A stretch of DNA of 64,000 nt from Cantharellus purpuraceus (lineage: Eukaryota; Basidiomycota; Agaricomycetes; Cantharellales; Hydnaceae). The stretch covers positions 1,240,001 to 1,304,000 of the forward strand of contig JALBUN010000006.1 of the NCBI GenBank assembly GCA_025174535.1, read 5' to 3'. Every line of letters begins with the position of its first letter. The stretch's first letter is position 1. Below, piece after piece: positions 7,000-50,760 of this stretch. The notes under the pieces are model-generated. The model was given only the letters and a program-made list of their open reading frames with translations. It was not told the origin of the DNA and ran no database searches. The position numbers and the translations under genes are program-made.

Positions 7000-9048
7000 G
7001 TGAAGTCGTCCAGTTTTGACTGCTTGTGGAATTAGCTCTGTAGCCGTGGAACGATGAGGTTCTGTGTTGTTCGCCTTATGCCTTGAGGAAGTTACGATCG
7101 GTTGAACGCAAGAAGGAATAGGAAGACACCGGTTTTCGTCACACTGGAACGTAACGTAATGATTAGGACGTGAGCAGCATTTCAGAGAAGAGGATTCGGC
7201 ACTAAAAGTGGCTGGCCGCCGTGACACCATCATAGTCTGTGTGACGACCTCTCATTAATTGCTCTTTGTCAACCACGTCCGCTCAATCTTGTCAATAACA
7301 AAGTATCGGTCTGGTGTCACCTCGCAGCTTGCGCCAACTCAGCGATGTCGTGAAAGACCCCTACATACAGCATTTCAACGAAAAACATTTCTCAGGGATG
7401 CATATGTTCACATCCCTAGCTGAGCACGTTACGCAAACCTAATCCTGCATCAGATGGCGTGGCTGTTCATATAATTGTTCTGATGTACATCATCCCGCAT
7501 TCGCCCCATATAGCAGTAGAAAAATGGTTTAAGTACTGCGGCAGTGAGCGTCTTTCTGCACACGCCGACGTCTAGACCTCTTAAACGTGTCTGGCGCAAG
7601 CAACCAATATCCCATGGCGATTCTCTCCGCTTCCTGACAGTCTTATGGAAAATTCCTCCCAAGCCATAATCTGCACACAGATCCAGGACCATCCCGTTGT
7701 CCTTGAAGCACTCTTGACCCCACGTGACAGGGGGAATGTGGGTTTTCCAATTCCAGCGACGAAGTCTTTGCTGGCTGCCACCCTTGCAAGTGGCATGGAG
7801 CATGGTGCCGGGTCGCTGCTATGCCGGCCCTCCAAGGCGCAAACAACGTAGTTTGGTCATTCTTTGTATTGAGACATCCACAGCATGCTCCTCGTTGGCC
7901 GATCGGCGGCTCAGAGGTGGGGAAAGATGATGGGCTCACCTCGGAAACCAATGTCCGTGGTATAGCCAGAGATATTGTCAAGCATCGCCACCCGCAAGGT
8001 GGGCCTTCAAGACATAGCAAGCAAAGTTATGGCAAGTCAAGAGGTGTATTGTCTAGTGATGGCGATTCAATTGAGCAGGCAAGCGTAGGTAAATCATCTA
8101 ATTTTATGGCGAAAATCCCAGGATTGAGGGCGTGTCAAGATGCAGCCTCAATGAGTCATGCGCCGGAAAATGTCGCCAAAACTCAAAGGGGTAGGTATTC
8201 TCAACTTCGACCAACGTAAATTGGTCAGCGATGGCTGTAACGAATCTGATACTAGAAGAACTGCATAGCGCACGCACCGTGTGCTTGGGCAAAGTATATG
8301 TCGATACTCAACCTCTTGATCGCTGTCGACTCGCGCTTTGAAAGAAATCTCTACGTGGTCCAAGTAATCGGCCCCACACATCCACCGCCATTCTGCGGGT
8401 GATGGGCAGAGTGGAATTCCCTTATCTTCTTCTCGAGATCTGGGTTGAGTTCTATCGTTTTCGCAAGTTGGGAGTAGATTTGGAGCATGATTGCTGCTGT
8501 TCCGTGATCCGTAATCTTCAAAGTCCATTCACTGACATAGCTCAGTGTACCCCATAGCTCTCTAAGCTGACGTCAGGCCCTAGGACAGTGAGCGGTTATG
8601 TGACTCAGGAGTATCATAGTGATTATCAGATCTAATGGATGGTTTTGTGGGAAAAAAGGATTATGTGAAATATATGTATGATTTTGTTGGCTAAGAAGCT
8701 ATTTACGCGATGAGGTGTATATGAACGCAGGACTCTCTTTACGCTCTCCGCATGGCTCTCAGGAAATTCTCAATTTCGCCGTCATCTCTCAGCATGAGGA
8801 ACCTGGAGTCACGAGTTCAAACTGTGTGAAGACCCCCTGATGCTATCGAGAAGACCATCGTGTGTTCATAGATCTAGCTATCCTGATGTCACTAGTCATT
8901 TCACCGTTCTGTGACGTTTGAGAGATACATCGCCTGCATTCGCCTGAATCTCCGAGACAATGTCGCCTAGAGCATGCATCTTCAGGACGGACTGTGCTTG
9001 GAAGGATATCACACACCTACTCCTTCTCGTCAAACTTACATGCGCCAC
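7000..9048. other. Gene-poor stretch between START-like gene and RPN14
   Basis: Apart from the weak minus-strand frames at 7450-8528, I see no conserved protein, RNA gene or repeat here. It follows the 3' side of RPN14 (minus strand) and the 5' side of the START-like gene. Confidence 0.4.
8104..8528 (-). CDS. Possible hypothetical protein fragment
   Basis: A 126-codon minus-strand frame starts MDFEDYGSRNSSNHAPN at 8528. A second frame, ending at 8104 and reading FTLVEVENTYPFEFWRHFP, overlaps it and also looks protein-like, so a small intron or a frameshift near 8250 is possible. I recognise no family and found no convincing splice pair. Further minus-strand open frames reach 7450 (including VTWGQECFKDNGM). 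This could be a lineage-specific gene or the remains of one. Confidence 0.25.
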
Positions 9049-10487
9049 TTAATACCTTCTAATTAAACCATCATCGCCTGCGGTCCATATACTTCCACCT
9101 GCCACTTTGATACCTCGCACCGGATCACAGTCGTAGCCCACAAGCTCCTCAATGACCTGGGGTCCCTCGGGTCGAATGGAAGCAATATAGGGAAGTCCAT
9201 CGGCACTTGCTATGGCAAGGCGTACCTCACCGCCCTCTGCTGATACGACGACCATGTCTTCAACAGAGGCACCGTTCCGCTGGAAAGAGAATAGGGGTGT
9301 CGTGAGCTGACGTGTGTCATAAATAGTTACAACGCCTGTGCGAGAACCCGCAGCAAGTATGTGATCGGCGCTCGAATACGCCATCGAGTCCAAAGGAGAT
9401 TTTGATATTGATGCCGGTTCCGAATGAAAGAAGGACAACTTCGAGCCCAGATCAAAGGCCTCGAAACTGCCGTTATGGAGGCCACAAAAAACGACTTTAT
9501 CTATAGTGTCAACTTCCCGCGAGTCCAAAGACATGGGAATGGTCTCTGTCACGTCCCCATCTGGGGGTCGATATATCACGGGATCAAACCCCCTTACTCC
9601 TAAAGACATCTTGTAGATGGGGGAATAGCCTGCAGATCCTAGAGCACGGATTTGTGAGCCAGCGCCGACGTCCCATAAACGAATTGTGCCGTCCTGGTGG
9701 GAGGCATTCGTTAGGAGCGTCGAGACCATGATGTTGAACAATGAACAGTCTGTAAATTATTTACCTTGGCACAACTGAGCACATTCCTCCCCCGCGAAAT
9801 TATTGCTGAGTCTGTAACGGCTCGCGTGTGGCCCTTTAAGGTGCGAGGGACGGAGAGATCTTCAGCGGAGATGATAGACAATGAAAAATCATTTGATGCG
9901 GTGAGAATAACTTTTGAGGAAGGGAAAAAACGCAGCGAGAGAATAGTGGATAGGTGTGGTTTTGATGTTAGAGGTTGTGTACCTCTAGACAACGTGTCGA
10001 CACGTAGGTTTCCATCCCCATCGCCTGTGGCGTGTAATGACAAGTCTGGGGAGACATCAAACGCAGTAATTTGGGGTTGCTAGCAAAACGGTGGTGAGTA
10101 CTACATATTACATCAAGCAGAGACATACTTGCTGGTTTGTGTCACCGAGGACTTGTCGAGGTACATGCAAACGCGTAGGCGGGACAGATAGAGAAGGACA
10201 TGCCACGGTATATAAACTCTGTGCTTTCATCAAGATCAAAAGACACGATCAAGAATACAAACGAACACGCGTACATGACCACCTTTCTGGAACTCAATGC
10301 CATTAGGTATTAGGTCGACCTGACCATCGGTCTTTCTTTGAACTTTAACTTTGCCGTGAACACTTTGGTAACCTTGCTTGTAGCAGGAAACCCAAAACGG
10401 TTCCTCAGGTATTATCGCTTCTTGGACTTCTGCAATGACGGTCTGGAAATCATGTTGAATGGTGACTTGAGGCAGTATGATACTCAT
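9049..10487 (-). CDS. RPN14: WD40 proteasome assembly chaperone Rpn14/PAAF1
   Basis: Exons 10487-10275, 10218-10129, 10079-9765 and 9693-9049 total 1263 nt (420 aa). The N-terminus (EEPFWVSCYKQG, then YQSVHGKV) is typical of PAAF1. WD40 repeats follow: HATGDGDGNLRV, SNDFSLSI, LKGHTRAV, SCAKDGTIRLWD (rebuilt across an intron), AAGSRTGVVTIYD and the last SIWTAGDDGLIRRY. Rpn14/PAAF1 binds the Rpt6 ATPase and guides assembly of the 19S regulatory particle in the cytosol. An ATG four codons upstream (10499) is also possible. It is divergent from the Myb gene with about 200 bp between starts, so the promoter is probably shared. Confidence 0.88.
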
Positions 10488-10688
10488 GGTCCATCCCACA
10501 CCAATAAATCAGTCACGTGCGTGAGGCGGTAATCTGTGGCACCCACAGCCACCCGCTAGCTGGAGCGCCTCACGTTGGTCGTCCTCCATCCGTCCTGCCT
10601 CCTTGCATTGATATCTTGGCACTTTACGCTCGCTTTCCTCGTTTCCAGAAGCTTACAAAGGCGTTGACCTCGTCTCTTGAAATTGAGT

Positions 10689-13626
10689 ATGGCCACTGAA
10701 GAGCCCCAAGCCTCCACTAGCAAGCTTAGCGCACCCTCTTCTACTTTTTCGTTCACTGCGCCATTCCCTCTGCGCGGAAATAGTCTTTCATCTTCAAAGC
10801 AAAGAAGGGTATCCCTGCCTTCCTCTCCGAGGGTCTTGCCGACACCAGGCTGGCCGTTCCGTGACGAAATGGGGTTGGAAGCAATGTCCTCCAGTGGGTC
10901 AGGATCAATGACTGCTGATAAGGACAAGAAACTGCGCAAGGTCGAGCCAGATATGGCGACTGTTTCCATGGAAGAGTCTATCCCCTCCAGCCTAGAGAGG
11001 AAGCAACGTAAGAAGTGGACCATGGAGGAGACGCAGATGTTGGTAGACGGGTGTAACAGGGTATGATGTCGCGTTCACTTGGGCTCTACAACTCATAGTA
11101 ATGCTCTGCATAAAGTGGGGAGTGGGGAATTGGAAAATAATACTCAATGACCCAGCATTTACATTTCACAATCGGTCGCCGGTAGACCTAAAGGATCGGT
11201 ATGTGGTGTTATTCTGCGTTGACTCTTGCTCATCGCGAGGTAGATTCCGAACTTATTTTCCCGACGCGTACAAGCAACACTATCCGAATGCAAAGACCCA
11301 TCTTTCCTCGAAAGTAAGGTCGGCACTTCCAGATGGATCCTCGATATTTGAGAAGACTCGAAGCAAAAAGCGAAGACCGTTCACTCCCGAGGAAGATGAG
11401 GCATTGAAGCGCGGCTATGACAAGGTACGGTTTCTCGTGTTACTATCATCTAATAAGCTCAAGACGCACACGTTTGTCTAGCATGGCACATTGTGGGCTT
11501 TAATTTTGAAAGATCCCGTTTTCCATGCCAAAAATCGTAGATCAACGGATCTGAGAGATAGGTTTCGTAACGCGTTTCCTGACCTTTACGAAGCGGCAGG
11601 TTATAAACCAAGGAACAATGCGTCGAAGAAAAAGAAAGGAAGCGAAGGTCTCCCGGTACCTGTTGTATCAGATCCCGGATATGATGGCTCCAAGGAATCA
11701 CCGGCAAAGAGGCCATTGAGACGGAGGCGAGCAAGCACAGCGACCGGATTGAAGTCGAGTCATACTAGGAGGGGGATGCTAGAAAGTACGACGTGCTCTG
11801 ATTCTGAGGAGAGCTCGGATGGGGAGGAGGGCCTGAGAGATGAAGCCATCCGAGTTTCTAAGCAGCGACCTGAAGTTGGACACGATGAAGTCACGCCCCA
11901 GCCTGCAGACCCTGTGGAACGAGGTCAATCTGCCAAGGTATGCTTGACCGACTTACCTAGAAGCCCCCTCGAACCCTCTGGAGGAGTCCCGCCAAACACT
12001 CTCTCGACTAGATCGACAGCCTCCCTCTCTCTTTCCGAAGCGACCGACTCTTCTCAAGCTCGACCCTGGTCATTACCAGACCATGCGGTCCAAGGCCAAG
12101 GCCATAACCCTAATTGGGTGCCTGCGAGTTCCCCTTCACCCGGTCGCGTGCCCCATGCCGATATTTTCCTCTCGTCCCAGGCGTCCCCTCCTTCGAATAA
12201 TATACGCCGAGGGAGCGACGGCCTACACACAGTGATTGGAAAATCTGCCTGGGTTCCAGAGGATTGGCTGTCGGCAAACCCAAGGCTCGAATCCTCACAC
12301 CCAAACTCTAGTAGTTCATCTTTCATCGGTGGTCCGTCGCCAGCGCCGTCCTCCCCATTCTCATTCTCCCCATCCTCCCATGGAGTAATGGATCGATATG
12401 ATTTATTCCCGACGAATATTGCAGCACACAATCACGAATATACCTCTTCGGAAGTAGGTTATGGCGATCGTGACACCCATTCTGCATTCTCCGAAGCCGA
12501 CATGTTTAATCCAGCCACTGCAAGTTTCCGTGGCTTCACCCATCACTCTAATTATGCAGGAGATCTTATCTTTGCCGCTGGTCGTCCGCAACACTCACCT
12601 AGCCATCTCGGTGGAGGTCTAGCAATAAACGAAAGAGGATTAGAGAGTTTGGAGGATTCCAACATTAGACGTATGGGGCTCCGCTCAGGACTTCCAGGCA
12701 TCGACGAAATTCCTTTGGCAGCAATCAGGCTACAAGATCGTGGGGACGCTGATATGGGGGAGGCCCAACTCGTCCACTCACGCGGAGCCTCAACTCCGCC
12801 GGACGAAGAGATGTCTGCAATACCGCCTGACCTCGATTTCCAAATAGCACCATTGTCAACTGAGATTCTCGCTGCAACTCCTACGTCTCTTACTAATCCC
12901 ATGTCACCTATCGACTTGCACTCAAACGTGCAGCTGGCTGTCCCTAAATCTAGACAAGCAGCCGCTGAGCAGGTTAATGTCCATCACCAGCATCTTGGGT
13001 CATCGTCGCACTATCGATCGTTTTCACAGCCTCCCGCAGAGCACAGAACCAATCACGACCACTCGCCTACCCCGTCCCAATCTCATGCTAGTAGTCCCTT
13101 CCCGAACTCCACGCGTACTCAATCACTATTCGACCCATCCCAGCCGCCGAGTCTTAACGAACCGTGGCGTTCCATTGATCTCACTGACCTCCCTTTCCTG
13201 GACCTTCACTACTACACGTCCAACAGCATTCACGCGCAAACGATGGCGCTCTTACAGGACCCAGTTGTGGAATCCAGCGACAACGCAGCACAAGCACTCG
13301 ACCTAGCGTCGGGTGTCAACTTTGGAAATGGCGCAGGTCAAGGACATGGCAGTAATAATAATCATCACCATCATCTTCACCATCATCTTCATTCTGCAGG
13401 GATCGCACCCGCGCAGTTGCATGCTCACACTCCGTCACACTACCACTCCCTTGCACAGGCACAGCTCCAGACAAACTCTGCGACGGTCGCACCGGCTGCG
13501 ACGATTGTACGACCTAATTATCATCACATTAGGGTACAGTCTGCTGCATCGCCGGATGATCTGCTGCTGAAGAAGGGTGAGAATAAACGAAAGAGGGTGA
13601 GTTGGGACGGAGGGCTAGCTTCATGA
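10689..13626 (+). CDS. Double-Myb telobox DNA-binding protein (Tay1/Teb1-type), 926 aa
   Basis: Exons 10689-11060, 11116-11198, 11244-11424 and 11482-13626 stay in frame. Two SANT/Myb units lie at residues about 105-155 and 195-245. The first has KKWTMEETQMLVDGCNRW, then VGNWKIILND; the second has RRPFTPEEDEALKRGYDKH, then LWALILKDPVF. Each ends in a telobox-like helix: PVDLKDRFRTYFP and STDLRDRFRNAFP. Two telobox Mybs in tandem are characteristic of Tay1/Teb1 proteins, which bind double-stranded telomeric repeats or related promoter sites. The remaining 680 residues are low-complexity (Ser/Pro/His-rich, with a His run near residue 845) and carry a KRRR basic patch near 275. The ATG at 10689 has no earlier in-frame ATG. 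A role at telomeres is inferred from the family. Confidence 0.8.
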
Positions 13627-13875
13627 CACTGCATGAGTTCCAGAGGGGTTCATTTTCTTTTCTTTTCTGCCATTGATACATTTGCATTGCTTCATTTTTC
13701 ACATTTTTTCCCCGTTGCATCGTGACGTCGTCTAGTCGCACTATTACTATGCATTGCATTGATCCCAGACAGCGCGCTTGACCAGTAGAGACATTAGGCT
13801 GTTAAAGTACGGTATTGTAGGTTTGCTGCGTAAGATATTTTCAGGCAGCTGCAGGAATATATATTCAAATCGCAA

Positions 13876-15456
13876 CTACGCGTTCGCGAACAGCTCTGGC
13901 GTCGTCTGGCTAACAAAGTGTTCTACCTTGTTGAGCTTTTCGCACCAGGCAGTGAGGCGGTCGGCGAGCTGGTCAATCTGTAGACGTGAAAGTACCCGAG
14001 GCTGCACCCATGTAATCTGCGCCTTCTCATCGACTTGGTCGAGAGTCCCGCGGATGAGCTTTAGGCTGATAGAAAATTGTGTAAATGAGATCCGTCGAGA
14101 TAAGAGGTGATCATACCTTAGTGCTTTCATTACCAGATGTTCGACTTCGTCAACTGGTAATCGAGTTTCGTGGGCGATCGCCTGGAAGGACATGGTACGG
14201 TCTTCCGCAGGTCGCTTGAATACCGACTCAATAAGCGCCATCAAGCAAATCTTTTGTCTCAAGAACGGGTAGTTTTCTTGTAAAATGGGCTGGGTGAGAT
14301 GATGAGCGGATGCGAGACCATAGTTTAGTCTGAAAACACGCACTTCTTTAGGGAAAAGAGGTGCCAGGGATTCAAATTTGCCAATGTTGCCTTCGTTAAA
14401 TGTGAAGAGCAACTTCTTGATCCATTCGTGTGGGGTGTTGTCGAGTGAGTCAAGAATGGGGTGCATGAGCTGAAGTCCAAAAGGGTTTTGGTGGGTCCTC
14501 AGCCAAAAGGTACGACACCGAAACACTCACGAGCTCCCCAAAGTTGTATATTGTATCTCCCAAGAACGCAGAGATACCGAGGTCATGCGCGCGTTGTAGA
14601 CGATCCTCTGGGGTAAGATCTGTGGCAGGGTCTATACAAGCAAGGAATAGTAAAGAGTGTTTGTAGTATGGAGCATATTCGGCTTTGGCCTGATATTCGC
14701 TTTAAAAACGACATCAAGCGGGATATTTTGAAACCCACCTTGTAGTAGTCAGCTGCTACGCTGTAATATGCAGCGTTCACAGATTGGTCGACACCATCCA
14801 GGTCGTCAAGGATCTATAATGCTGGTCAACACAGGGAGGGGACAGTACAGTGGCTTGTGGCACACCTTCCCAGCTTCGTCCATATCCGCCTTTGTCCCTA
14901 GGAGATCCCCATACAGTAACTTTGCATGTGCCAATGTCGACAGCAGCAAAACATAGGCCTCTGCGAACTTGGTCTTGTTCATTCGCGACAATAGAGAGGT
15001 AAGGAAAGCGAGGTGTGCAGCGGGGTCTGTGAAGCCATAACGTCAGTGAATATACGTAGCATCACAACTTACGATGGTAAGGCATACCATCGAATTCCTT
15101 CGAGACTTTAGCACCCATCTGAACGAGAGTGAGCTGGTTGATCCTAGTCTCGAAATCGCGCACGAATCGCTCGAACACGTCGACCCGGTAGGGTTTGGAT
15201 AATGGGTGGTCGAAGAAGCCGGACACGGACTGTGTGAGCTGGTGCCATAGCCTGTAATATGCGTGTTTATTAGTTTAGGAACCAATGTGAATGGTATGCC
15301 ATGGCACGCGTACTTTCTGCGGTGGAGATTTCTGAACGACTCGATGAATGGGTGGAGCTCGACTGGTGCAGTGGAGAGGGCGGTAGTTAAATAGGCGTCG
15401 ACATCTAGTTTTGGTGGCTTGTCAACCTGCATCTGTGTTGAGCTTTCTCCACTCAT
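13876..15456 (-). CDS. RPN9: 26S proteasome regulatory subunit Rpn9 (PSMD13)
   Basis: A multi-exon minus-strand gene. Joined exons read MSGESSTQMQVDKPPKLDVD, LWHQLTQSVSGFFDHP, RVDVFERFVRDFETRINQLT, KTKFAEAYVLLLSTLAHAKL, ILDDLDGVDQSVNAAYY, APYYKHSLLFLACID and GISAFLGDTIYNFGELLMHP. They finish in a PCI domain (RQKICLMALIESVFKRP, HETRLPVDEVEHLVMKAL) and WVQPRVLSRLQIDQLADRL. This is the non-ATPase lid subunit Rpn9, which helps place Rpn10 in the 19S particle. The C-terminus (HFVSQTTPELFANA) ends at 13876, 249 bp from the convergent Myb gene. Introns near 14100 and 14320 are my best choices. Confidence 0.9.
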
Positions 15457-16667
15457 GATGTATATACCGTAGGTAGGTGGTCAGCTCGAAACGTTGACCA
15501 GCGCCTCGCGCTTTTGGAATCGGGGCCGCGTCAGCTCCGACGCGCCGTCACTAAAATATTTTCTGATTGACATACATACTTACGTGCAAGACGAGCGAAG
15601 TTTCTCGTGTTGATGTTGAACGTAGAAGCCACAAGAAGCTTCGCCGATAATGCTTCAAGTTGGATCCATGGCCAGTTTCAGAAAATCGGTTCATACTGAG
15701 GACAGCTTGGATATTAACTCTGCTAGTGAGCATAGACTTCAAGGTAGGAGATTAATCACAGGTCAACTGCGGTTTATATGTCATGAACTAGCTGACAGGC
15801 AAGTGAAAGAATGCAGGGATATAATTTCTAGAATTGATACGGTTCCAAAACAAATTTAAGGAGGGTAATAATGTTATGCAGTAATGCAGACATGATCTGG
15901 GGAAAGACGGGAAAAATGAATCGTAGCCTGGGCACATAAATGCCTCAGTACTTGATTAATCATACGAAAAGTGGTTCTACAGCGCAAAGTGCGTATAGCC
16001 GTTAGTCTCAGTGGCATTCGGACTGGGAGATAATTTTTTTGCTTACAAGATACGACTCATGAGATCACACAGTACCCATTGAACCCCTGCTGAGTATCCG
16101 CATTAACAGGTGACTCCGCCTCTTGGTGGGCTGCCAACAGCCAAATCGTAGTGATGGAGTCCATATAGATTTGAGGATGTTGTTCAATCTTTCACTCGAT
16201 GTACTTGTCTTGGGTGTCTGTAAAGTCGTAGACTTCGTTACCCCCATGGTAGGCTTTTAAAGGAATCCTTCTATAGAACTTTAAACATGATTCATTGATT
16301 AATCATAATTTCCGAAAAACAATGGGACTATGGAGGACAATAGATGCAGCCACCTCGATTGTGTACTTAATAGATGAGTAGATGGAGCCTGGCTGCATTA
16401 GCTGGCTATTGGGTGCCGCGTTTGTTTTTGAGTTTTGACAATACTTCAATGCATCCTGGGGCGGTGGTATATATTTAAAGACAATGGCATGACTGTAAGC
16501 TCCGCTTGAATATTCAATATCCGACCACGTGCTGTTCATTGTGTGTCTAAGCGACGCATACTGTCACATTGTCCGGTTCCGCCTTTATAAATAAGCAGCT
16601 TGTCTATAAAAGAGAAGAATCAGTGTACTTTTAAAACCATATATCATCTTCTCATCCCCTCGACATC
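15457..16667. other. Left flank of the mating locus, no gene seen
   Basis: Only short open frames without family resemblance. It forms the upstream region of RPN9 (minus) and of pheromone 1 (plus). GGACAATA at about 16335 and CATTGTCC at 16567-16574 resemble the element described for the mating genes. Confidence 0.5.
16605..16612 (+). promoter_or_regulatory. TATA-like box of pheromone gene 1
   Basis: TATAAAAG lies 56 bp upstream of the pheromone ATG at 16668. A second A/T element (TATAAATA) is about 20 bp further upstream. The CATTGTCC element at 16567 precedes both. Confidence 0.45.
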
Positions 16668-16787
16668 ATGGACACATTCTCGCTCATATTCCCTGTTACA
16701 CTAACCCTCACCACAAATGACGAAACTGAGGGCCTCGTCAATTCTGACTCATCACATCCCCCTGGTGGGTACTGCGTAGTTGTTTAG
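16668..16787 (+). CDS. Lipopeptide mating pheromone precursor 1 (CaaX, ends CVVV), 39 aa
   Basis: A 39-codon intronless frame begins MDTFS and ends GGYCVVV followed by TAG. A cysteine plus two aliphatic residues and a terminal residue at the C-terminus is a CaaX box. In basidiomycete pheromone precursors this is farnesylated, the aaX is removed and the cysteine is carboxyl-methylated, giving a short secreted lipopeptide. The MD(T/S)F start is usual for these genes. The mature peptide is probably the last 8-12 residues before the cysteine, in the segment SDSSHPPGGYC; no clear E-R/E-H type cleavage pair is visible. It lies 839 bp from the 3' end of a STE3 receptor, facing it. It is too short for standard gene callers. 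Confidence 0.85.
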   Translation: MDTFSLIFPVTLTLTTNDETEGLVNSDSSHPPGGYCVVV

Positions 16788-17626
16788 ACGACGTGAGTTC
16801 GTTCTAGATCATGCCCTCGATTTCAGCTTCACCGACGGTTTTATGTGTATCAGTACACCATGAATCAGGTTTTGATCTGATCTGTGGTCACTGTCTTCCG
16901 CGAAAGGTGATATCGATTTTATTCAGCAGGAATCTTGTTGTAGTGCGGTTGAACGGGTCATGTCTTAATTTCGTTCCGCGCATGATTCTGACTGCGTCAT
17001 TTAATTTAAACATCAATGTTATAAAGTCCGTTCACGACCGATCACTGGTAATCAATATCTACACTGAAATGCCAATGTTGTGGCACGCCCGTAGCACGTC
17101 AATATCAATATAACCTACATCCGCAAAGCTTCAAATGTAGCAAGTGGATCCCATTATCCGTTCAGTAGGCCCCCAAAACCAAGAAGCAATCGACCGGACC
17201 CGCGATGACATCTGTTAGATTAGAACTTGCAGTAGGCTGAACCGTGACGCCAAATTGCAAAGATCCGTTCCGTCATAACCATGAAATAGATTAGGACGAA
17301 GTTTAGAGTGATCAGATATATTCATATATTGTTCTTAGTCACCTCCCTTACGTACGTCTGAAACATTCGACTAGTACTTAGGGTGGATGGTACAAAACAG
17401 TGGTGCGAGATCATATTAATTTCAATCATGAAAGCAAACATATAAGATGAGAATGTAATCACTGTAGTTGGAGTGTGACGTATGAGGAAGGATGAATGGG
17501 TGGTGACATCGTGAGCCCAAGGACAGAAGGAAGCAATGTTCGTTGAGGTCCAAACCACGTTAAAAAATACTGATGTACAATTCTCATAATGAATTTTTTA
17601 ACCTTCAAGTGAGCACTTCCAAGATG
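16788..17626. other. Spacer between pheromone 1 and receptor 1
   Basis: AT-rich; a 100-codon plus-strand frame (16811-17113) has no family features and probably lies in the pheromone 3' region. No RNA gene or second CaaX peptide was found. Confidence 0.4.
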
Positions 17627-19427
17627 TTATGTCATAGTCGAATCTGTTTGAGGGAAGGCGTTATCTGTGGCTTGTATATCTTCATGTCGCCCCAAATTAG
17701 TAGAGACAGCTAGGGCATGGATTGGTTCTTCTACAGGGTACGGCTGATGGTTGCTGTCTGATTGAAGAGAGTATGATATATCCAAGGATACTTGTGCTCT
17801 GGGCGTGAAAGAGGGGGATGCGGATTGTGGAGCACTTGTCGAAGTTTCATCGGGTACAGGCCCTGTGAATGCACGAGTGCATGCATGACATGGCTGTGTT
17901 GAACCACGAAGACAGGTTGAGGGCCACGACCATGAACTTTGAGGCCGGGGTACATTTTCCAAGTCCCCCGTCGACGAGTGTTCCGAGACTGACGCTGAAG
18001 AAAGCTTGGAAGGGGGAGGAGAATGTTTGTAAGACTGTCGCATCCAAGGCCGAACGCAATCAACTTTAATTGGTGTCTCAAAAGGCCCTTTTGTTCCCGG
18101 TAGCTTGAGTGATGAGTCGACCCAAACTTTAGATCCATATCCCAAAGCATCTTCGGAGAGTGTGACATTCTCGCCAAATCTGGTCATATCATAAATTTAC
18201 TCGTGGCAATGCCAAGCAGTTATGAGAGACTCACCTAGATGTCGGTAGCTCAAAACTGGAATTATGGAACTTCGGTTTCTTCAACTGTTGCAACCAATCC
18301 GGGCGACAAAGCCAAGCCACGGTTGCCTTATAATCAGAGATAGCTTCTTGCCCAAAGGCGAAGAAAACAAAAAAGGAGACACATGAAATGGGCACAATCC
18401 ACCACTGCCAAATCAACTGCGTGGTATACATGGGGGGGATAATAAACGCTGGGAAAACGGCTACGCGTGAGAAGTTCGAGTGCACGTTTTCCCAGCTGAT
18501 CCAGGGTCGCAAACCAGTGAAGGAATTGAAGTAGATCAGGTAGGCGTTGACTCCTGTGTCCCACGCCATTTCAAAAACAGCGAGGGCCATTAAACGGAAG
18601 TAGCGACTAGGACTAAGAGCAGAGCTGGAATCGCGGAGGTGCACAGCAAACTCAATCCGACGCCGCAGGAAATGTCGGAGAGCCAGAGCTTCAGCGATTA
18701 GTTAGCTATTACATAGAGTTGCCTATAAAAATAAACATACCGGCATACACGAAGGATGTTAGGGACATGAGAAATGGGGGCACCCATAAAAGCATGATGG
18801 CGGCAAGAGAGAAATACACGGGAGGATAACATCCGAAGTCTTCGATTATGTCTAACCGATGGCCTTGCACGACATAATCTTCAGAAATATAGATCATAAA
18901 TAAAGATAGCAATGAAGATCCAAGTGACCACCCACGAAGTGCCATGGATACGATGGGAAGACCAAAGCACATTCCAAATTCAAATATTTGACGTCGACGC
19001 TTGTCTGATGTGAAAGTCCGCACGTTCCGGGACGACGATACATGCTCAAGGTGACGAAGAACACACAATGCAGAGGCAGGTACTGCATATGTGAATCCTA
19101 TGGTAATCTTGGTAGCTGAGACAAGAAGTTCCATAAGATATAGACAACTGACGATGCCGCCACCGAAACTTACTAATGTCACACCATACTTGGAACTTGA
19201 CGTCCGCATTACCAGCCCAAAGGAGAGAGTTCACCCCTCGTATGATGCTGACCACTGTTAACCAGATAATCAAAGCTACGGTGCAGATACTCCCGGCCTG
19301 TGCAGAGACTTAGAGATGTGATTGTGTCTGATAAACAAGAGTAACACACTCTGATATGTGAGGGTAATGAGCACAAAACGAGAGGAATAGATAGAAAAGC
19401 GGCCACGGCGAGCTCTGCGTGACGCAT
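17627..19427 (-). CDS. STE3: STE3-type pheromone receptor 1 (seven-helix GPCR)
   Basis: Six or seven exons on the minus strand. The start MRHAELAVAAFLSIPLVLC is helix 1. Exons then give AGSICTVALIIWLTVVSIIR (helix 2), NSLLWAGNADVKFQVWCDI, TKITIGFTYAVPASALC (helix 3), the DKRRR loop, YVVQGHRLDIIEDFGC, the helix-5 segment around WVPPFLMSLTSFVYA, LRHFLRRRIEF, then GLRPWISWENVHSNFSRV and IWQWWIVPISCVSFFVFF. These are signature segments of class D Ste3 receptors, which sit in the plasma membrane and bind farnesylated pheromone. A Ser/Pro/Thr-rich cytoplasmic tail of about 185 residues is encoded by the last exon and ends DSTMT. Exon borders match those of receptor 2, so the pair is probably an old tandem duplication. 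Which pheromone it recognises cannot be read from the sequence. Confidence 0.92.
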
Positions 19428-19521
19428 GTTTGTAACAGTCTAACTTGAGGAAGTAGGTGGAGGAGCGAAGCTGCCGGTAAGGAATCATATTTTACGGCGC
19501 CACTACAAGTTCCTAAGTAGC

Positions 19522-19535
19522 CAAAGGACAATGGG
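19522..19535 (-). promoter_or_regulatory. Shared 14-bp element upstream of receptor 1
   Basis: CAAAGGACAATGGG on the plus strand (CCCATTGTCCTTTG towards the gene), 95 bp upstream of the receptor 1 ATG. The same 14 bases occur upstream of receptor 2. The core resembles HMG-box sites (ATTGT, CTTTG), the class bound by mating regulators such as Prf1. A second CCCATTGT lies near 19580. Confidence 0.55.
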
Positions 19536-19806
19536 AAACCCACGGTGCTGGAAGTAGGGGATTAAAGTTTGTGGAAGGCCCATTGTACTCGTTTTTTTTT
19601 TTTTTTGATTACGTAAGGCTCGTAGGTCATCGACTCGTTCACCTCGGTTTTTCATTTGTTTCCGAGGCACTACTAATGTATGTTGGATTTCAAACCGCGC
19701 GTACCATTATGGACGCGTAGCGTTGTATTAATATGTGTACCAATGGCTCGTGCTTTTATCTCTCTGAGCTTCAAGCTGTAGGATATATTCTTGCAGTTGT
19801 AATTGT

Positions 19807-19843
19807 CTCACCTCAGCGCTTCTGTCACTTGCGCTGAGGTGAG
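19807..19843. repeat. Perfect 13-bp inverted repeat (hairpin)
   Basis: Arms CTCACCTCAGCGC (19807-19819) and GCGCTGAGGTGAG (19831-19843) flank an 11-base loop. The loop and right-arm unit (AGCGCT..TGTCACTTGCGCTG) recurs imperfectly from 19914, where the outer pairing is lost. Confidence 0.75.
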
Positions 19844-21547
19844 TAAGTCCGTCTAGTCGTATGTTCCGTATTCTGATGGTCCTCAGTTGCATACTAGGTA
19901 ACCATGACTACATAGCGCTCTTGTCACTTGCGCTGGGTTGTATGCTAGCTCCTCCGTGTTGTCATAAGTCTCTACTCATTCGTATGTGTTGTATTAGAGT
20001 GTATTTGTTTACCAATAATTATTGGTTCGGCATATGCCAGGTTCACTGACAATTACACACCACGACCGTGAGAATATTAAGTCTGACATGTCTAATTACC
20101 ACTACATGCAGTGCCCTGTCGCATACTCCATACCTATTCTGTAATATACGCTCACCATCTTGATCGGGACTCAGCTTGAGATCATAAGACGCAACACTAG
20201 CTACCGTATTGACCATGTTTATTACCAGATCATCATCCTCAATACTTGAAGGGGTGGTAGTGGGGACGGTTTCATCAATGTTGAATTTATAATTTAGTGT
20301 GGCAAGCAGAGCCTCTCTGAAAGTCCAGAGGACACCGTGGCGAATATGCAGGAAACCACGTGTTCAGGCGCTATTGATGGGTCCAGCGCTTATATCATCT
20401 TCCTGACAATAACTATTGGTTACTTGATAATTGGCAAACAAATACACTCTATTGCAGATAAGAAATCGGCCATTTATAATACATAAATATTTACGTTACT
20501 GGCACATTATCCTCATAGACAGTCGGCTTCATGAAACACACGGCATCTATTGCTGATTATTGAATAAGTAGCGCTAATTACATGGGCTTGAGGAATATCT
20601 ACTATGTTTTGCCCTTCACCTTGGTTGGTAATGATCCGTTGGGAGTCCTGCTGGCAAAGCGCTGAAGCTAACAGTGACGGTGAGAGATAACACTGAAATC
20701 TTTGACTACTCTGGGTCTCTGTACCTTCCATTTCACCCCATCTCCCTGCTCATCAAGGGCTCTGTCTGGGCTCTCGGATATGAGAATTCATGAGGGATTG
20801 TCCATGTACTCATCTTAATCTCATGATCCTGTTGCACAAATGACTCCTACAATTTCATGTGTGTATTTCTTTCTCAGCTCACCTAGTCATTGTCCAGGGT
20901 GTGTTCATTAATGTCTGCCTCCAAGTTGAACAGTGTCCTAGCCTTTCACTGTCATGGTTTGAACGTTTGAGGCTCAGTGGCACTTAAGTATGTATTGTTC
21001 CTCAAGGCCTCAGGCCTCAAAATGGACTTATTTGCAAGCCTGAACGTCTGCAAATGACAAATCGAATTAATAGCGGGGCCACGGTAGGAAGCTGACATGT
21101 AATCACGACCGCAATTTATTTATCCATATTACTTATCACTTCTGCCACGCGGAGCCCTGGCTATATAGCACAATCACAATTTATGGTACAATGAAGAGCA
21201 AAGTAAACTTGAACCCGGCCGTTACTGGCCCGGCCAGACTCCTAGTCAGCAGCTATTCTGCGCACCTTGTCTCCGATCGAAGGCATTTGATAAGATACTG
21301 TTAATTGTCTCGTAGTTGGTTAACCAGTGTTAGAGGAAAATGCTCCGACTATATCAGTCTGATCATTGAGTCATTTACAGTAGACCCCGTATTATGTAGT
21401 ACAAGTTGACACGTTTACTATAGCAATTAATGATACAGTTCGGCAGTGTTTCTATATTAACTGCCAGAGGGAGAACCCAACAGGTGAGGGGATGGCAGTA
21501 ATGGGAAAGCGAAAGAATGGCCCGCCAGATCACGAATAAAGTTCAAG

Positions 21548-23401
21548 TTACACAACATATCTCTCTACTGTCATAAGTATACCACCGTGCGGGAACGGGG
21601 TGTATGACTCAGTTTCCTCCTGGTGATGCGATGTGTTTACATTAGGGATATACGCTTCAGAGACAGCGATTCCAAAGTCGGTTGAGACTGATCGCCGATT
21701 GGCGATTGAAGTAGGGGAATTGTGGTGTGGCGTAGATGTTGATGTGTGTTGTGAAGTAGGTGAGTGTGTTGCCATTTTATCCAACGTGACATTGACCAAG
21801 TCAGGCCGCTTCAAATCTGGTAAGCCAGAGTTACAAAGTGTTTCACCCTGTTGAGAAGAGACTGGGATGGATGCCCCCCCAACTGGCAACAGGGAGGTAT
21901 CTTCAACGCAAATTTGCGTAGACTCTCCTCCAAGTGATACTGCGCCGCTTTTTAAGTTCGTCGTCGAATGTACCATGAATGCTGCCTCCGAATGGAAAGC
22001 AAAATTCGAACGTTGAAGGTGAGGAGAATCGGAAAGTATGACAGATTCCAACTGATTAAAGGATAACTTATCCCATGGTTTTACGTTATGTTCAGATGTA
22101 GAATCTGAGGATCTGAATGATGAGAGTGCAACATTGTAACTCTTGGAGGACTTCCTGTTGGTAGAAATAAATGTTGACGATCAATGGCTATCCAGCAACA
22201 CCGAGTTACATAAACACACCGATGCGTGGGGAGCGTTTGAGATTTGCTGGAGGTTTGCATGGCTGCAACGTTTTGACGCAGGATATTCTTTCGCATCCAA
22301 ACAAAGGCAGCGCGATAGTCAGACATGGCCTCTTCTCCAGACCCGAAGAATATGAAAAATGTAATGCATGAGACTGGAACAATCCACCATTGCCAGATCA
22401 GCTGAGAAACGAATTGAGGAGGGATTAAATATTCGGGGAAAATGCCGACTCGAGAAAAATTAGAATGTACGTTCTCCCAGCTGACCCATGGTCGCAGACC
22501 AGTGAAAGTGTTGAAGTAGATGATATAGGCATTAACCCCAGTGTCCCATATCATCTCAACGATCGCCAATAACATCAAGCGAAGGTAGCGTGCTGGGGTG
22601 ATAGCAGCCTGACAGGTCTGTAAATGAGCTGCGAATTCGATACGACGCCGCAGGAAATGTCGCAGCGTCAATGCTGAAAAAATTGGAATGAGGAGCAAGC
22701 TTATAATGTCAACAAATTCCTCACCAGCATACACGAACGTTGTTAGAGACATAAGAAAGGGTGGAACCCAGACAATGATTACAGCAGCGACAGAGAAATA
22801 GACGAAAGGAACACAGCCAACATCTTCAATGATGTCGAAGCGGTGCCCTTGGACGATGTAATCTGAAGGTAGTCAGGATGTGACTAGATATGAGCTGCTA
22901 GGTAGAAAACATACGAAGAGCCATGAAGATTATTGGGACACCAAAACACATCATCGCCTCAAAAATATTCCGCCGCCGCTTATCGCCAATTGTAGTACGA
23001 ACATTTCGAGCGGACGCAACATTCTCAAGATGACGAAGAATGCAGAGTGCAGAGGCAGGGACGGCGTAGGTGAATCCAATGGTGATTTTAGTAGCTGGAA
23101 ATACACAAGTCAGCGGTACGGATCGAAGAACCATCACGACTGCACACTGACAGATATCGCACCATACTTCAAGCCTCACTACAAAGTTATTTGCCCATAT
23201 GAGAGAATTAACTCCTCGGATGATGCTCATGACCGCCAACCACGCAATCAAAGCCAATGTACAGACGCTACCAGCCTAAGAGCAAGATGAGCGTTGAACC
23301 GCAAGTAGTGTCACTGAACGCACCCGAATGTGTGATGGCAAAACGCAAAACAGTAAAAAGATGCATAGAAACGAGACGACTGGGAATTCAGGGTGACGCA
23401 T
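21548..23401 (-). CDS. STE3: STE3-type pheromone receptor 2 (seven-helix GPCR)
   Basis: Minus-strand gene with the same intron plan as receptor 1. It starts MRHPEFPVVSFLCIFLLFC (helix 1), then AGSVCTLALIAWLAVMSIIR, NSLIWANNFVVRLEVWCDI, TKITIGFTYAVPASALC, the DKRRR loop, YIVQGHRFDIIEDVGC, WVPPFLMSLTTFVYA, LRHFLRRRIEF, GLRPWVSWENVHSNFSRV and IWQWWIVPVSCITFFIFF. The helical core is close to receptor 1. The cytoplasmic tail differs: after a splice near 22205 it reads KSSKSYNVALSSF, then a Ser/Thr-rich stretch to TVERYVV at 21548. That splice stays in frame and explains why the upstream exon appears to run to about 22081. The protein is a plasma-membrane receptor coupled to a G protein and a MAPK cascade in the family. 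Confidence 0.92.
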
Positions 23402-23510
23402 GTTCAGCTTGAAGGATGGACTCGCAAATATAGTGAAAGAAAGTGTCTGTAGGAGTAATAGGAGAAACTCTGAAAGGATGTTGACAGCACATGTTGCGGT
23501 GTTTTTCAAG

Positions 23511-23524
23511 CAAAGGACAATGGG
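23511..23524 (-). promoter_or_regulatory. Shared 14-bp element upstream of receptor 2
   Basis: CAAAGGACAATGGG, identical to the receptor 1 copy, 110 bp upstream of this gene's ATG. Flanking bases differ, so the match is not simply a recent duplication of the whole promoter. Confidence 0.55.
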
Positions 23525-23847
23525 CTACGATAGAGTTTGTGGTTGGAGGTTGCTCTCCCTTTGTCCTTCACTAGGTTCAAACTCCGTTTACTAGTGTACA
23601 TATCTACTTCGGTAAACTCCATAAATATTGTTTACGTTGACATAAGCGTTTTTGAAGTCAGTGAAACTGAATTCCGTGCCTAATATTTAATGGTTTCAAA
23701 AGCGCTTATGGAGCTGTGTACATACCAACTTCCAAGGGCAAACAGGAAAGACGATGGGGTAACTGAGGTTTTGTGGTAAGGACTAAAGCACACCCTGTGA
23801 AAGAAATCATTGATTCGTGGCTTAACTACCAATCTACTCAGATCCTT

Positions 23848-24324
23848 CAAGCTTCAAGCTTCATGCTGAAGGTGCACCAGACGCCAATCTCGGCCTGGAT
23901 ACTTTCGATAGCACAACGACAGCGCTACAATGAGCTATCCCGCAGAGGGTGCTCCTCAGGATGGAGTTCTCAGGTTGGAGTTCATGCTCCTATTACTTAA
24001 GAGTCGATCAATCTTAATCAGTACTCAGTACTACAGCTGTTCAAAAACCAACCAATTAGCAAAGATAGTGGATGCTCCAGCTTCCACCCTCAACGCCCTG
24101 ATGCAGGCTATTTCTGGCAACAATGCTTTTTGTATCTTATTTTTGTCAACAATCTTGGAACCAGAGACATCTGCAAAACATGCATGGAATCCAAGGACGT
24201 GTGATCCTCCATAAATTTTTGAAAGCATCGATTAATGAAAGTCCAACAGCTCGCGATGAGCCACTGGGCTCAGCGGATAAGTGTGGTGGTATCACGTGGG
24301 GCTGAACTTGAAGCTTGAAGCTTG
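23848..24324. repeat. 16-bp inverted repeats 445 bp apart (possible small element)
   Basis: CAAGCTTCAAGCTTCA at 23848-23863 is the exact reverse complement of TGAAGCTTGAAGCTTG at 24309-24324. The interior has no transposase-like frame. This could be a MITE-like remnant or chance, since the arms themselves are repetitive; I saw no target-site duplication. Confidence 0.35.
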
Positions 24325-24627
24325 GCTTGCAGTGCGGAGGAGACAATATGGAACTGATGCAGTTTCAAAGTTAGGTCTGCCCTGTCAGTCAGCAGTACCG
24401 CAATAAGGTACTATGCAACTCCCTATTGTCATTGCAACACACCTCTGCATGCTACAATTCATGAGAAGCGGCCTGTACAGGCATGGTCATCATAGTACTC
24501 ATATTTGGGAAACGTGAGAAATGCGGACAATGGACTTGCTGACGCTTATAATTAAACGCCGTACGCGCACACCATTGTCTGGTCGGCTGCTCCGTTACTA
24601 TTAGCAAAGTGCCGAGGATGAGTCAAG

Positions 24628-24635
24628 TATAAAAA
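24628..24635 (+). promoter_or_regulatory. TATA-like box of pheromone gene 2
   Basis: TATAAAAA lies 118 bp upstream of the pheromone 2 ATG and is followed by a pyrimidine-rich leader. Confidence 0.4.
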
Positions 24636-24745
24636 GTTGAAGAACCTAGTAAACCTTCAGTATCTCTTGACCATCCACAGCTTCGCGTTTTCCCTGGTAC
24701 TCGCTTAGGCTATCAAGTCGACTTCTCCTTACTACCACACCCGCA

Positions 24746-24847
24746 ATGGATTCATTCACTTACCTACATTTCGCGCATGAAGACGCCGAGGTTCCTACGA
24801 ATCAGGAACATGGTGGGACGGGCTATGGGTACTGTGTGATTGCATGA
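24746..24847 (+). CDS. Lipopeptide mating pheromone precursor 2 (CaaX, ends CVIA), 33 aa
   Basis: A 33-codon intronless frame begins MDSFTYLHF and ends GYGYCVIA before TGA. CVIA is a well-known farnesylation CaaX box. An E-H pair at residues 21-22 is a plausible processing site of the E-R/E-H type known in mushroom pheromones, predicting a mature GGTGYGYC with a farnesylated, methylated cysteine. The start resembles pheromone 1, but the bodies are unrelated in sequence. The gene is divergent from receptor 2 with about 1.3 kb between. Promoter features include a TATA box and two HMG-like sites. Confidence 0.87.
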   Translation: MDSFTYLHFAHEDAEVPTNQEHGGTGYGYCVIA

Positions 24848-26267: not shown

Positions 26268-26979
26268 TCAGTGAACGAAAACTGCGCGCTCGTGAACAAG
26301 CCTACGTGTTTCACGCTGTGAGGGAGGCTTTGTGGTGGAAGCAACAAGACGTGGTTGATTCTTTCGGAAGCGAGATTTAAGATCTGTATGAAGTGTCAGA
26401 AACGAAAAGAAAGGCTCTCAATAGAGACGAGCCCCAAACTGCTTCAGCAGCCTCCTTTTCCCTCTTCAGCTGGTCCATTGAGGCGTCCCATTGGATAGTT
26501 TGTATCTTGTTTTTTCGGGTCTTTGAGCTAGAAGAGGCCGCCGAGGAGAGATTCGAGAGCGTGTGGTCTATACCATCATCGAACTCTTCTTCACGTTCTT
26601 CTCGATCAGTGAGACACTGTCTCTGCAAAAAAGACGATAGGTCGACTTCTGGTTCAGGTTCCTGATCAACTAGGTATATTGTCAGGACATATATCGTCAG
26701 GACAGGTTTCTTTCGCAAAATGTTATATTCTTCACCGTTAGAGTCTAGTTCTGGTTCTTCATACCTGTCTACGTTTGTTACAAGTTCGCGCTTGGCATAC
26801 TTGCCAAGTTCTTCGTCGTCCTCGTCATCTTCCTCGTCTGACTCTTCATCTGCGAGGCGGAGCCGCTTTCCAAATTCAGCAGGGCGACCTGCTCCTCTCC
26901 TTCCACGAGCTCGCAAGTATTTGCCCAGACCACCTCGACCTCGGCCCCGACCATGATGAGTAGGAGTAGGAGTAGACAT
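26268..26979 (-). CDS. RG-rich, acidic protein of unknown function
   Basis: The N-terminus (MSTPTPTHHGRGRGRGGLGK, then YLRARGRRGAGRPAEFGKR) is an RG-rich basic region. An Asp/Glu run follows (residues about 45-60), then RYEEPELDSNGEEYN, PEVDLSSFLQRQ and QTIQWDASMDQLKREKEAAEA, which predicts a short coiled coil. The last exon reads DLKSRFRKNQPRL to a stop at 26268. It joins best if the preceding intron (26432-26384, 49 nt) uses a GC donor. I believe proteins of this plan occur across basidiomycetes, but I know no function; RG repeats suggest RNA or nucleic-acid contact. A hydrophobic insert (VLTIYVLTIYLV) made of a 15-nt direct repeat is odd. The divergent CNOT11 gene begins only 81 bp away. 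Confidence 0.65.
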
Positions 26980-27060
26980 CGCGGAATCAAAATTACAAAG
27001 CATGCCGTCTCTTCTCCAACGCTGAGGTACCAGACGTCGTCTTCGTCACCATCGTCGACG

Positions 27061-47841: not shown

Positions 47842-50760
47842 ATGGCCTTCCAACTTTCTGCAACATCCCTCACACCTTCACGGCCTGCACCGCAAGCACC
47901 TTCTCGTCGCCCGACACACCCTTTAAGCTCAGGTAGCTCGTCCTCCGGTGCGGCAAACTCCATTAACTCGTCCATATACGCCTCCTCGACTCTGGTGGCC
48001 AGTGGCTACTCTCCTTCATTTTCCTTGACGCCGCCCTCTCCTTCAGCTGGTTCATCATACTCGTCATCCTACTCTGGCATAGGCAGTTCCCCCAATCGTG
48101 GGTCTGCCACACCTTTGGGGTCACAAATCGTGAGAAGTGGCTTTGTTAGCGTCAAAGAGGAGGGATTTGCTAGCCTATTCTGGGGAAGGAAGTGGCTCGT
48201 TTTACGAGAAGAGACACTATCCTTCCAGAAGCACGAGGTACGCCTCCTCATTCGGCTATAACACTTCTCTCACCCACTATCCCAGACCTCCCCACAAACC
48301 AACATTATCTATCTACGTGACATATCCAGTGTGGAACGCACTGATCTTAAGCCATACTGCCTTCTTCTGGAAACGAAGGAGAAACGATTTTACTTGTCAC
48401 TCAAAAGTGACGAGGAATTGTATGGGTGGCAAGACGATATCTACTCCCGTAGTCCCCTCATGGGCGTATCGCACCCCACCAACTTCGTTCACAAGATTCA
48501 CGTAGGCTTTGACCAGAACAGTGGCGCTTTCACGGTGTGTATCTCCACTGTGTCGCCTGCGCCATTAACTTCATATTACGTTAGGGCCTCCCGGAGCAAT
48601 GGACACGACTCCTCACTCAATCTGCGATTACTCGTGAGGACTACGCTCGCGATCCCCAAGCGGTTTTGGAGGTGCTCGAATTCTACACCGACCAACAGCG
48701 CCGGGGGAACGGAGCGGGCGACGATTTTGGTGCCATCCTCCCTAACAACATGCATCCTTCCGGCTCAGCTACACCTGCTGCGGGCCTTCCCTCTACCGCA
48801 CCTACTCCTGCCGCGGCAGGGCGCTACACACCCGACGCATCTTTAGCTCCAGGGGGGACTGCGCGGTTTGCAGGGACAGGCCTCGGCGGACTCACGTCTT
48901 CGAAGTCAAATCCTGCACTCGGTGCTTCGGCACGCATTCCACCCCGACAAGATTCGTCTGATGGACCACGCGAAAATGGGCGCTCCGCGACGCCGCAACC
49001 TCCTATACACCCCGCCACCTCGAGTTCGCCTCTCCAGGCTTCACGCCCCGCCCCTGCGCGTCCACTCGTAGCAAACCGGCCCGCTCCAGCGGCGCCGAAT
49101 GTTACCCCATCATCTGCCGATCTCCGGTCCCGCGCTAAAGCACATGGTCCTGGCGGTGCCACTGAAATCATTCGTCCAGGCGCTGGTGAATCCCGCGATG
49201 CACCATTGCGCAATGATGGCCTGGCAAGTCCTCCGACTGTCTCGGTTAGCGAGCCACCACCTCAGGAACCTGTGCGGCCTACATTGCAGCCTATTAAGTC
49301 ATCACCGGCTCTCACACAGCCATCGGCATCCGTTAAACCCCTTGCGACCAGTAAGAGAACACCACCCCGCTCCCCGTCACCCAATCCGCAGGTTGTTCGG
49401 GATCAGGAGCGCGAGCAACGGGAACGGGAGCGGGAGCGGGAGCGAGAGCGAGAGCGTGAACGAGAGCGTGAACGCGAGAAGGAGCGGCAGAAGGAGCGTG
49501 AACGTGAAAGAGAACGGGAAAGGGAGAAAGAGCGGGAGCGGGAAAAGGCGAAGAAAGATGAAGAGAGCAAGAGTAGTGTCGCTGCTGCAGCAGCTGCGCT
49601 AGAGAAGCCCAAACCCACTCAGGTTGAACGACGGATCAGCACTTTAACTGAGGCTCAGATCATGGACAAACTAAGAAGCGTCGTGAGTGGCGAGGATCCA
49701 AAGACTTTGTATAGCACTATCAAGAAGATCGGACAAGGGTGTGTCGCGGTAGCTTGTGCTATCTGTTTATGATGCTGACGCAGTGTGCAGTGCGTCCGGA
49801 CACGTGTATGTTGCCAAGACCCTTTCGACCGGCAAGAAAGTTGCCATCAAGCAAATGGATTTGTCGCATCAACCCCGCAAGGAACTCATTGTCAATGAGA
49901 TTTTGGTCATGAAAGAATCTCAGCATCCGAACATTGTTAATTTCCTGGAAAGTTACCTTGTCAAGAGTAACGATCTCTGGGTTGTGATGGAATACATGGA
50001 AGGCGGTGCGCTCACGGATGTCATTGAAGCTAATAATCTTGAGGAGGATCAAATTTCAAGCATCTGCTTGGAGGTAAGTTTGTGTATATGATGAGGTGAT
50101 GGTATTGGGGTTGAAATCTCCTGCCAGACTTGCAAAGGCTTGGGTCATTTGCACTCCCAAAGCATCATTCATCGCGATATCAAATCCGACAATGTCCTCC
50201 TCGACGCTCAAGGACGAGTAAAAATCAGTACGTGATGAACCCTTTCCCTTTCTTGAGAATGACCAGTGTTACTCTGCTGTTTACAGCCGATTTTGGGTTC
50301 TGTGCTAAACTGACAGACCAGAAGTCGAAGCGGGCTACTATGGTGGGCACACCATATTGGATGGCTCCCGAGGTTGTCAAACAGAAGGAATATGGTGCCA
50401 AAGTGGATATATGGTCTCTTGGCATCATGGCTATCGAGATGATCGAAAATGAGCCGCCGTATCTGGACGAAGAACCCCTCAAGGCATTATATCTTATTGC
50501 AACGAATGGGACACCTACGCTGAAGAATCCTGAGGCACTTAGCAGGGAACTCAAGAACTTCTTGAGCGTGTGCTTATGCGTTGATGTCAAGAGCAGGGCG
50601 ACTGCTGACGAACTTTTGGATGTACGTATTCTCGCTTGCTGTCTAAGCTCTGCGGGCTGAATGACCCCTTTGATGATTCCAGCATGAATTCTTACGAAAG
50701 GCGTGCGCTTTATCTGGACTTGCACCTCTCCTTCGGTTCAAAACCAAGCAGACATCATGA
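47842..50760 (+). CDS. CLA4: PAK-family Ser/Thr kinase with PH and CRIB domains (CLA4/STE20-type), 864 aa
   Basis: Exons 47842-48237, 48286-48534, 48585-49738, 49791-50073, 50128-50227, 50287-50621 and 50683-50760 total 865 codons. After a Ser/Pro-rich start, a PH domain (residues about 95-190: [40 protein letters not shown]) leads into a CRIB motif ([17 protein letters not shown]), which binds Cdc42/Rac-GTP. A Pro-rich linker and an unusual Arg/Glu repeat (residues about 465-515) precede the kinase: [41 protein letters not shown] and [12 protein letters not shown]. All catalytic residues are present. Family roles are polarity, cytokinesis and, for STE20 members, pheromone signalling. A PH domain points to the Cla4 branch, although the STE20 in the Cryptococcus mating locus also has one. 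Confidence 0.9.

Follow-up and report, generated by a model that had tools for sequence, protein, structure and literature searches.

A probable MAT-B mating-type locus with two receptor/pheromone units in Gomphus purpuraceus

We analysed a 64,000-nucleotide window of the genome of the mushroom Gomphus purpuraceus (deposited as Cantharellus purpuraceus, assembly GCA_025174535.1; contig JALBUN010000006.1, here C6:1240001-1304000). The window holds two STE3-type pheromone receptor genes, R1 and R2, together with three small open reading frames (ORFs), P1, P2 and P3, that resemble pheromone precursor genes (Table 1). An earlier note had proposed two tandem STE3 receptors on the minus strand, and both were recovered as intact spliced models matching the PF02076 profile. 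The models were made by hand, from the sequence alone. Each has five GT-AG introns, located at the same codon positions and in the same phases in both genes, and exons 1-5 are of equal size (78, 124, 180, 138 and 454 nucleotides). The 292 positions of PF02076 are covered at 2-292 by R1 and at 1-292 by R2. In a simple hydropathy analysis, R2 showed eight peaks, with two in the region of helix 5, and R1 showed six, its helix 6 falling below the cut-off of 1.1. A solved structure homologous to the receptors was not found by sequence.

Table 1. Features of the locus and its surroundings, in window coordinates (aa, amino acids).
Feature	Position	Strand	Remarks
R1, STE3-type pheromone receptor	17627..19427	-	508 aa, 6 exons; ATG 19427, stop 17627; PF02076 E 5.3e-84
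R1 exons	19427-19350, 19297-19174, 19115-18936, 18878-18741, 18688-18235, 18179-17627	-	
R2, STE3-type pheromone receptor	21548..23401	-	526 aa, 6 exons; ATG 23401, stop 21548; PF02076 E 2.9e-89
R2 exons	23401-23324, 23275-23152, 23094-22915, 22862-22725, 22673-22220, 22154-21548	-	
P1, pheromone precursor ORF	16668..16787	+	39 aa, starts MDTF, ends GYCVVV; TATA-like stretches upstream
P2, pheromone precursor ORF	24746..24847	+	33 aa, starts MDSF, EH present, ends GYCVIA
P3, pheromone precursor ORF	16057..16164	-	35 aa, starts MDSI, ends GYCVIS
Interspersed repeat, R1-R2 spacer	19677..19973		26 match rows in the rest of the genome (one copy may span several rows)
Interspersed repeat, R1-R2 spacer, like a miniature inverted-repeat transposable element (MITE)	19990..20457		21 match rows in the rest of the genome (one copy may span several rows)
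PAK-type kinase gene	48585..50657	+	neighbouring ORFs encode a P21-Rho-binding domain followed by a protein kinase domain

The R1 and R2 proteins share 67% identity (219 of 325 aligned amino acids), and their tails past residue 305 are barely alignable, with a single 33-column match (E 0.035). Since synonymous sites are saturated, leaving the distance not computable (NG86), and fourfold sites agree at only 37 of 98 positions, the duplication behind the pair can be taken as old; the same figures give no sign of a recent duplication or gene conversion. Two divergent pairs of mating receptors in Pleurotus ostreatus are reported at 55.4-75.7% identity (PMC13108863), a range that may refer to full-length proteins and that includes the R1/R2 value for the 325 aligned residues.

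To list candidate pheromone precursors, all six frames of the 64 kb were scanned, and ORFs running from ATG to stop were kept if they were 25-105 aa long and had a loose CaaX motif at the end. Eight such ORFs were found, two of them nested. Three of the eight have both an MD start and a GYC-aaX ending. Each of these lies beside the receptors, P1 and P3 at most 1.6 kb from R1 and P2 1.3 kb from R2. The earlier note had described two CaaX precursors on the plus strand that bracket the receptors. P1 and P2 agree with this description, but the count was incomplete: P3, just left of the point where the noted region began (16605), had been overlooked. Judged by its sequence, only P2 would pass for a textbook precursor, and it is the one ORF of the three above the PF08015 cut-off (26.4 against 22 bits). 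The N-terminal precursor motif is described as MDS/AF (PMC8305134); P2 carries it, and P1 and P3 are each one residue off.

ORFs of the form MD...[GY][YFW]C-aaX occur three times in the window and in none of 60 dinucleotide shuffles, and they were likewise absent from 300 shuffles of the locus. The looser form MD...CaaX also gave three ORFs, against a shuffle mean of 0.05 (maximum 1). As these patterns were composed after the ORFs had been seen, we take the shuffle result as support, not proof. ORFs of 28-94 aa with any CaaX ending were not enriched in the window (8 against a shuffle mean of 6.8) and moderately so in the locus (5 against 1.15; maximum 7 in 300 shuffles), and a CaaX ending alone was therefore rejected as evidence. 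The weight lies instead on the MD start, the YC-aaX ending, the position and the mutual alignment. The 13 residues before GYC align without gaps in P1-P3 with nine pairwise identities (permutation p 0.0025, in a register chosen by eye). In addition, the 3′ ends of P2 and P3, running past the stop codon, match each other in inverted orientation (80% over 35 nt), as expected for paralogues facing outward at both ends of the locus.

Besides these two receptor genes, the assembly (40,153,731 bases in 50 contigs) contains no other STE3 gene that our searches could find. All six candidates from an STE3 profile search and all ten match rows from a search with the R2 protein are exons of R1 or R2. A mating locus with different receptors elsewhere in the genome, the outcome that the earlier note had set against its own proposal, did not emerge. 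Extra non-mating STE3 genes are described as widespread in Agaricomycetes (PMC8161036, PMC5100862, PMC8305134, PMC3564976, PMC13108863), and the STE3 content of this genome looks lean. As BUSCO completeness is reported to be 86.9% (PMC9498453), a further STE3 gene may be missing from the assembly. The homeodomain (HD) mating genes lie on contig C1 (3,873,942 bp) near 1.215-1.223 Mb, together with a peptidase M3 (MIP-type) gene. The pheromone/receptor (P/R) genes on C6 (1,503,545 bp) are unlinked to them at contig level, as in a tetrapolar layout.

The locus is held in an interval of about 10.9 kb between a PCI-domain gene on the left and an ORF at 26377-27003 on the right. We regard the PCI-domain ORF (13879-14526) as belonging to a gene that starts at 15456 and that by eye we take to encode the proteasome subunit Rpn9. 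GC content is 44-46% across the locus, compared with 48.5% for the window. About 25 kb from R2, on the same contig, lies a PAK-type kinase gene, a gene often linked to mushroom MAT-B loci (PMC3564976).

In our view the locus probably represents MAT-B (P/R) of G. purpuraceus and contains two receptor/pheromone units. The interpretation rests on the intact receptors with their conserved intron positions, their STE3 matches, the three pheromone-like ORFs with their gap-free similarity, and the fact that the genome searches found no STE3 genes beyond this pair; the HD and peptidase M3 genes on C1, the PAK-type kinase, the lower GC content and the identity range of R1 and R2 also count in its favour. 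Receptor and pheromone genes are tightly clustered, as is characteristic of MAT-B. The layout of a basidiomycete B-type locus put forward by the earlier note is thus upheld as the best reading. That note had left two options, two sub-loci or one mating and one non-mating receptor, and the former is favoured, as each receptor adjoins one or more pheromone ORFs. Most simply, the units would be {P3, P1, R1} and {R2, P2}.

From the gene families we infer the following mechanism. Once expressed, P1-P3 would each yield a peptide that receives a farnesyl group on the CaaX cysteine, is trimmed and leaves the cell as a short lipopeptide, its targets being the receptors carried by a compatible partner. 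The receiving side would consist of R1 and R2, as class D G-protein-coupled receptors: the partner's pheromone would bind one of them, and the bound receptor would start a G-protein/mitogen-activated protein kinase response leading to nuclear migration and clamp fusion. The pheromones of one unit would be silent toward that unit's own receptor, and the locus would be expected to vary between alleles.

Several observations weigh against a two-unit MAT-B locus. No second haplotype was found in the assembly, in which the stretch 15481-19660 of the locus matched only itself and, as a cross-match, R2. Substitutions between R1 and R2 are not enriched in the ligand-side loops; under our own loop assignment, identity is 59/83 in outer, 42/60 in inner and 99/133 in membrane positions. 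Neither P1 nor P3 matches a Pfam profile or has an ER/EH-type dipeptide; they carry DS and DT at the position where P2 has EH. All three ORFs, at 33-39 aa, are shorter than the 40-100 aa quoted for fungal pheromone precursors (PMC5100862). Finally, the account of the mating genes in the G. purpuraceus genome paper, based on Transdecoder and Pfam searches of ~20 kb around both receptors, reports no pheromone precursor at the locus (PMC9498453). As to the dipeptide, a charged pair such as ER, EH or DR, some 10-15 residues from the C-terminus, is described for precursor processing (PMC5100862, PMC8305134). Rhizopogon precursors are said to have ER, but several of the sequences in Table 4 of the same paper show none (PMC5473757), and for this reason the ER-type dipeptide may not be universal.

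The published annotation agrees with ours in the two clustered STE3 genes (on contig00006) and in the HD genes on another contig (contig00001), and differs in the pheromone genes (PMC9498453). P1-P3, all within 1.6 kb of a receptor, contradict its negative result if they are read as precursors from their sequence. The discrepancy would be explained by the lack of a Pfam match in two of the three ORFs and by the shortness of all three for an ORF finder. In another study, about half of the pheromone genes were found only through a CaaX pattern script (PMC5473757). The present analysis would complete the MAT-B locus of an edible mushroom of the Gomphales and correct the published record, and the pheromone sequences could serve as markers for mating-type assignment and breeding. 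Among the sources covered by our search, which took in few subscription journals, only the genome paper appears to describe any mating genes in Gomphus, the Gomphales or the Phallomycetidae (PMC9498453).

We looked for a second copy of the left flank as well, and positions 9000-15480 matched only themselves and one 34-nt stretch. The strain was isolated from a fruiting body, and its heterozygosity is reported as 0.01% (PMC9498453), which agrees with the detection of just one copy of each flank and locus stretch that was tested. Possible reasons for such heterozygosity and one MAT haplotype in a fruiting-body strain are that it fruited as a homokaryon, that the isolate was homokaryotic, or that the estimate is poor. 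Two interspersed repeats lie between R1 and R2, and the MITE-like one has 30-nt inverted ends that are 87% complementary. Literature searches on MITEs at P/R loci and on homothallic Gomphaceae yielded nothing of use here. The search for these repeats omitted even the self match and is thus not exhaustive; nothing negative is based on it.

Other explanations have to be weighed against two MAT-B units, and the likelihoods that we attach to all of them overlap and do not sum to one. It is very unlikely that the assembly joined two alleles of one dikaryon in tandem. The R1/R2 identity does lie within the range reported between alleles (PMC13108863), but the left flank occurs once and no part of it recurs between the receptors, genomic repeats make up part of the spacer, and the reported heterozygosity speaks against joined dikaryon alleles (PMC9498453). 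One receptor might serve mating and the other not, R2 and R1 for example, and P/R loci often have non-mating receptors next to them (PMC8161036, PMC8305134). Such pheromone-receptor-like genes are described as having no adjacent pheromone gene (PMC5100862, PMC3564976), however, whereas pheromone ORFs adjoin both R1 and R2. Moreover, R1 and R2 are closely related and share one intron plan, and neither looks like a classic non-mating receptor. This division of roles therefore seems improbable to us. The locus could also be a relic of the bipolar type, which signals while mating type is set by the HD genes alone, the situation in bipolar mushrooms such as Agaricus bisporus. The mating role of P/R genes has been lost repeatedly in Agaricomycetes (PMC8305134), and the few STE3 genes found here recall bipolar Boletales, which have fewer receptors than tetrapolar ones (PMC5473757). 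The receptors and pheromone ORFs of G. purpuraceus are still intact and tightly clustered, though, while those of A. bisporus are scattered (PMC8305134), and we regard a relic as unlikely but deserving some credence.

A self-compatible locus (primary homothallism) would differ from the mechanism above in that the R1-side pheromones trigger R2, or the reverse, within one haploid genome, so that a single haploid mycelium completes the cycle and the strain fruits alone. Two units do stand side by side in one haplotype, with the HD genes on another contig and no further STE3 gene found; that the genome is haploid is suggested by the single haplotype and by the low heterozygosity reported for a strain from a fruiting body (PMC9498453). 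The gene plan is shared with Phaffia rhodozyma (PMC4915694), and homokaryotic mushrooms exist in Amanita phalloides (PMC10598064). Because multi-unit P/R loci also occur in self-sterile mushrooms (PMC5100862, PMC3564976, PMC13108863), we give self-activation only a small chance, and the low heterozygosity may mean only that the tissue isolate was homokaryotic or that the k-mer estimate is weak. If self-activation is real, it would explain the near-zero heterozygosity reported for the strain, the single MAT haplotype and the failure to find spare STE3 genes, and primary homothallism in a lineage of mushroom-forming fungi would then have a basis in gene content. With two linked units as the only STE3 genes found, the choice between heterothallic and self-compatible mating should be directly testable in this species.

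We compared the proposed MAT-B locus with those of Flammulina velutipes, Serpula lacrymans, Pleurotus ostreatus, Coprinopsis cinerea and Schizophyllum commune. As in these agaricomycetes, STE3 receptors adjoin small CaaX pheromone genes apart from the HD locus. The nearby PAK-type kinase is common to S. lacrymans, and the outermost pheromone genes (here P3 on the left and P2 on the right) face outward as in PR-b of F. velutipes. In contrast, the G. purpuraceus locus is compact, no extra STE3-like genes were found in the genome, and two of the three precursors lack the dipeptide. P. rhodozyma likewise has two receptors, each beside its own pheromone gene or genes, in one haploid genome with the HD genes on another scaffold. 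However, it is a yeast of another lineage with two pheromone genes, compared with three ORFs here. In this primary homothallic species, each receptor responds to the pheromone from the opposite cluster (PMC4915694); such reciprocal activation was shown in the yeast, whereas in G. purpuraceus it would be no more than a possibility.

Further pheromone genes were sought across the genome. PF08015 matched in two places only, P2 and C9:962964-963107 (L027), the latter weakly (E 0.029) and within a 622-aa open frame, and this second match is unlikely to be a pheromone gene. Protein searches with P2 and P3 as queries each recovered only the query itself; since neither retrieved the other, these searches are too weak to prove absence. 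The gap-free pattern YCV[IVM]x-stop/Trp occurs in 14 places, three of which are P1-P3, and the other 11 are at chance level because a reversed control gives 17. The 10 kb to the left of the window contain four CaaX-ending ORFs, none of which ends in YC-aaX. About 134 kb to the left of the locus, at C6:1121775 on the minus strand (L033), the same chance-level pattern picked out a 33-aa ORF that begins with Met but not MD, has a TATA-like box upstream and ends in EQDPSDIGDYCVIA, with last codons like those of P2. From its sequence, it is possibly a solitary fourth pheromone gene.

The HD region on C1 (L029 4316-6874, 6961-8906) contains an 852-aa ORF that is HD1-like, as it combines Mating_N (mating-type protein beta 1) with a KN homeobox. 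The genome paper names an 811-aa protein HD2 and a 436-aa protein HD1 (PMC9498453), and on account of the domains of the 852-aa ORF these labels look swapped. The two ORFs of the HD2 gene gave no homeobox profile match. Large imperfect inverted repeats, in blocks of 60-544 nt that are 90-98% complementary, occupy C1:1219001-1224002 (L030 1-5002), and three further KN-homeobox sites above the cut-off lie near them (C1:1218979, 1220948 and 1222559). Neither the repeats nor the extra sites are mentioned in section 3.2 of that paper. Genome-wide, the KN homeobox matches best (E 2.7e-16) on a different contig, at C10:797383-797496, and this match probably belongs to an unrelated developmental regulator. 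Within the PAK-type kinase gene, positions 49398-49544 form a tandem-repeat tract with units of 6, 18, 21, 42 and 48 nt.

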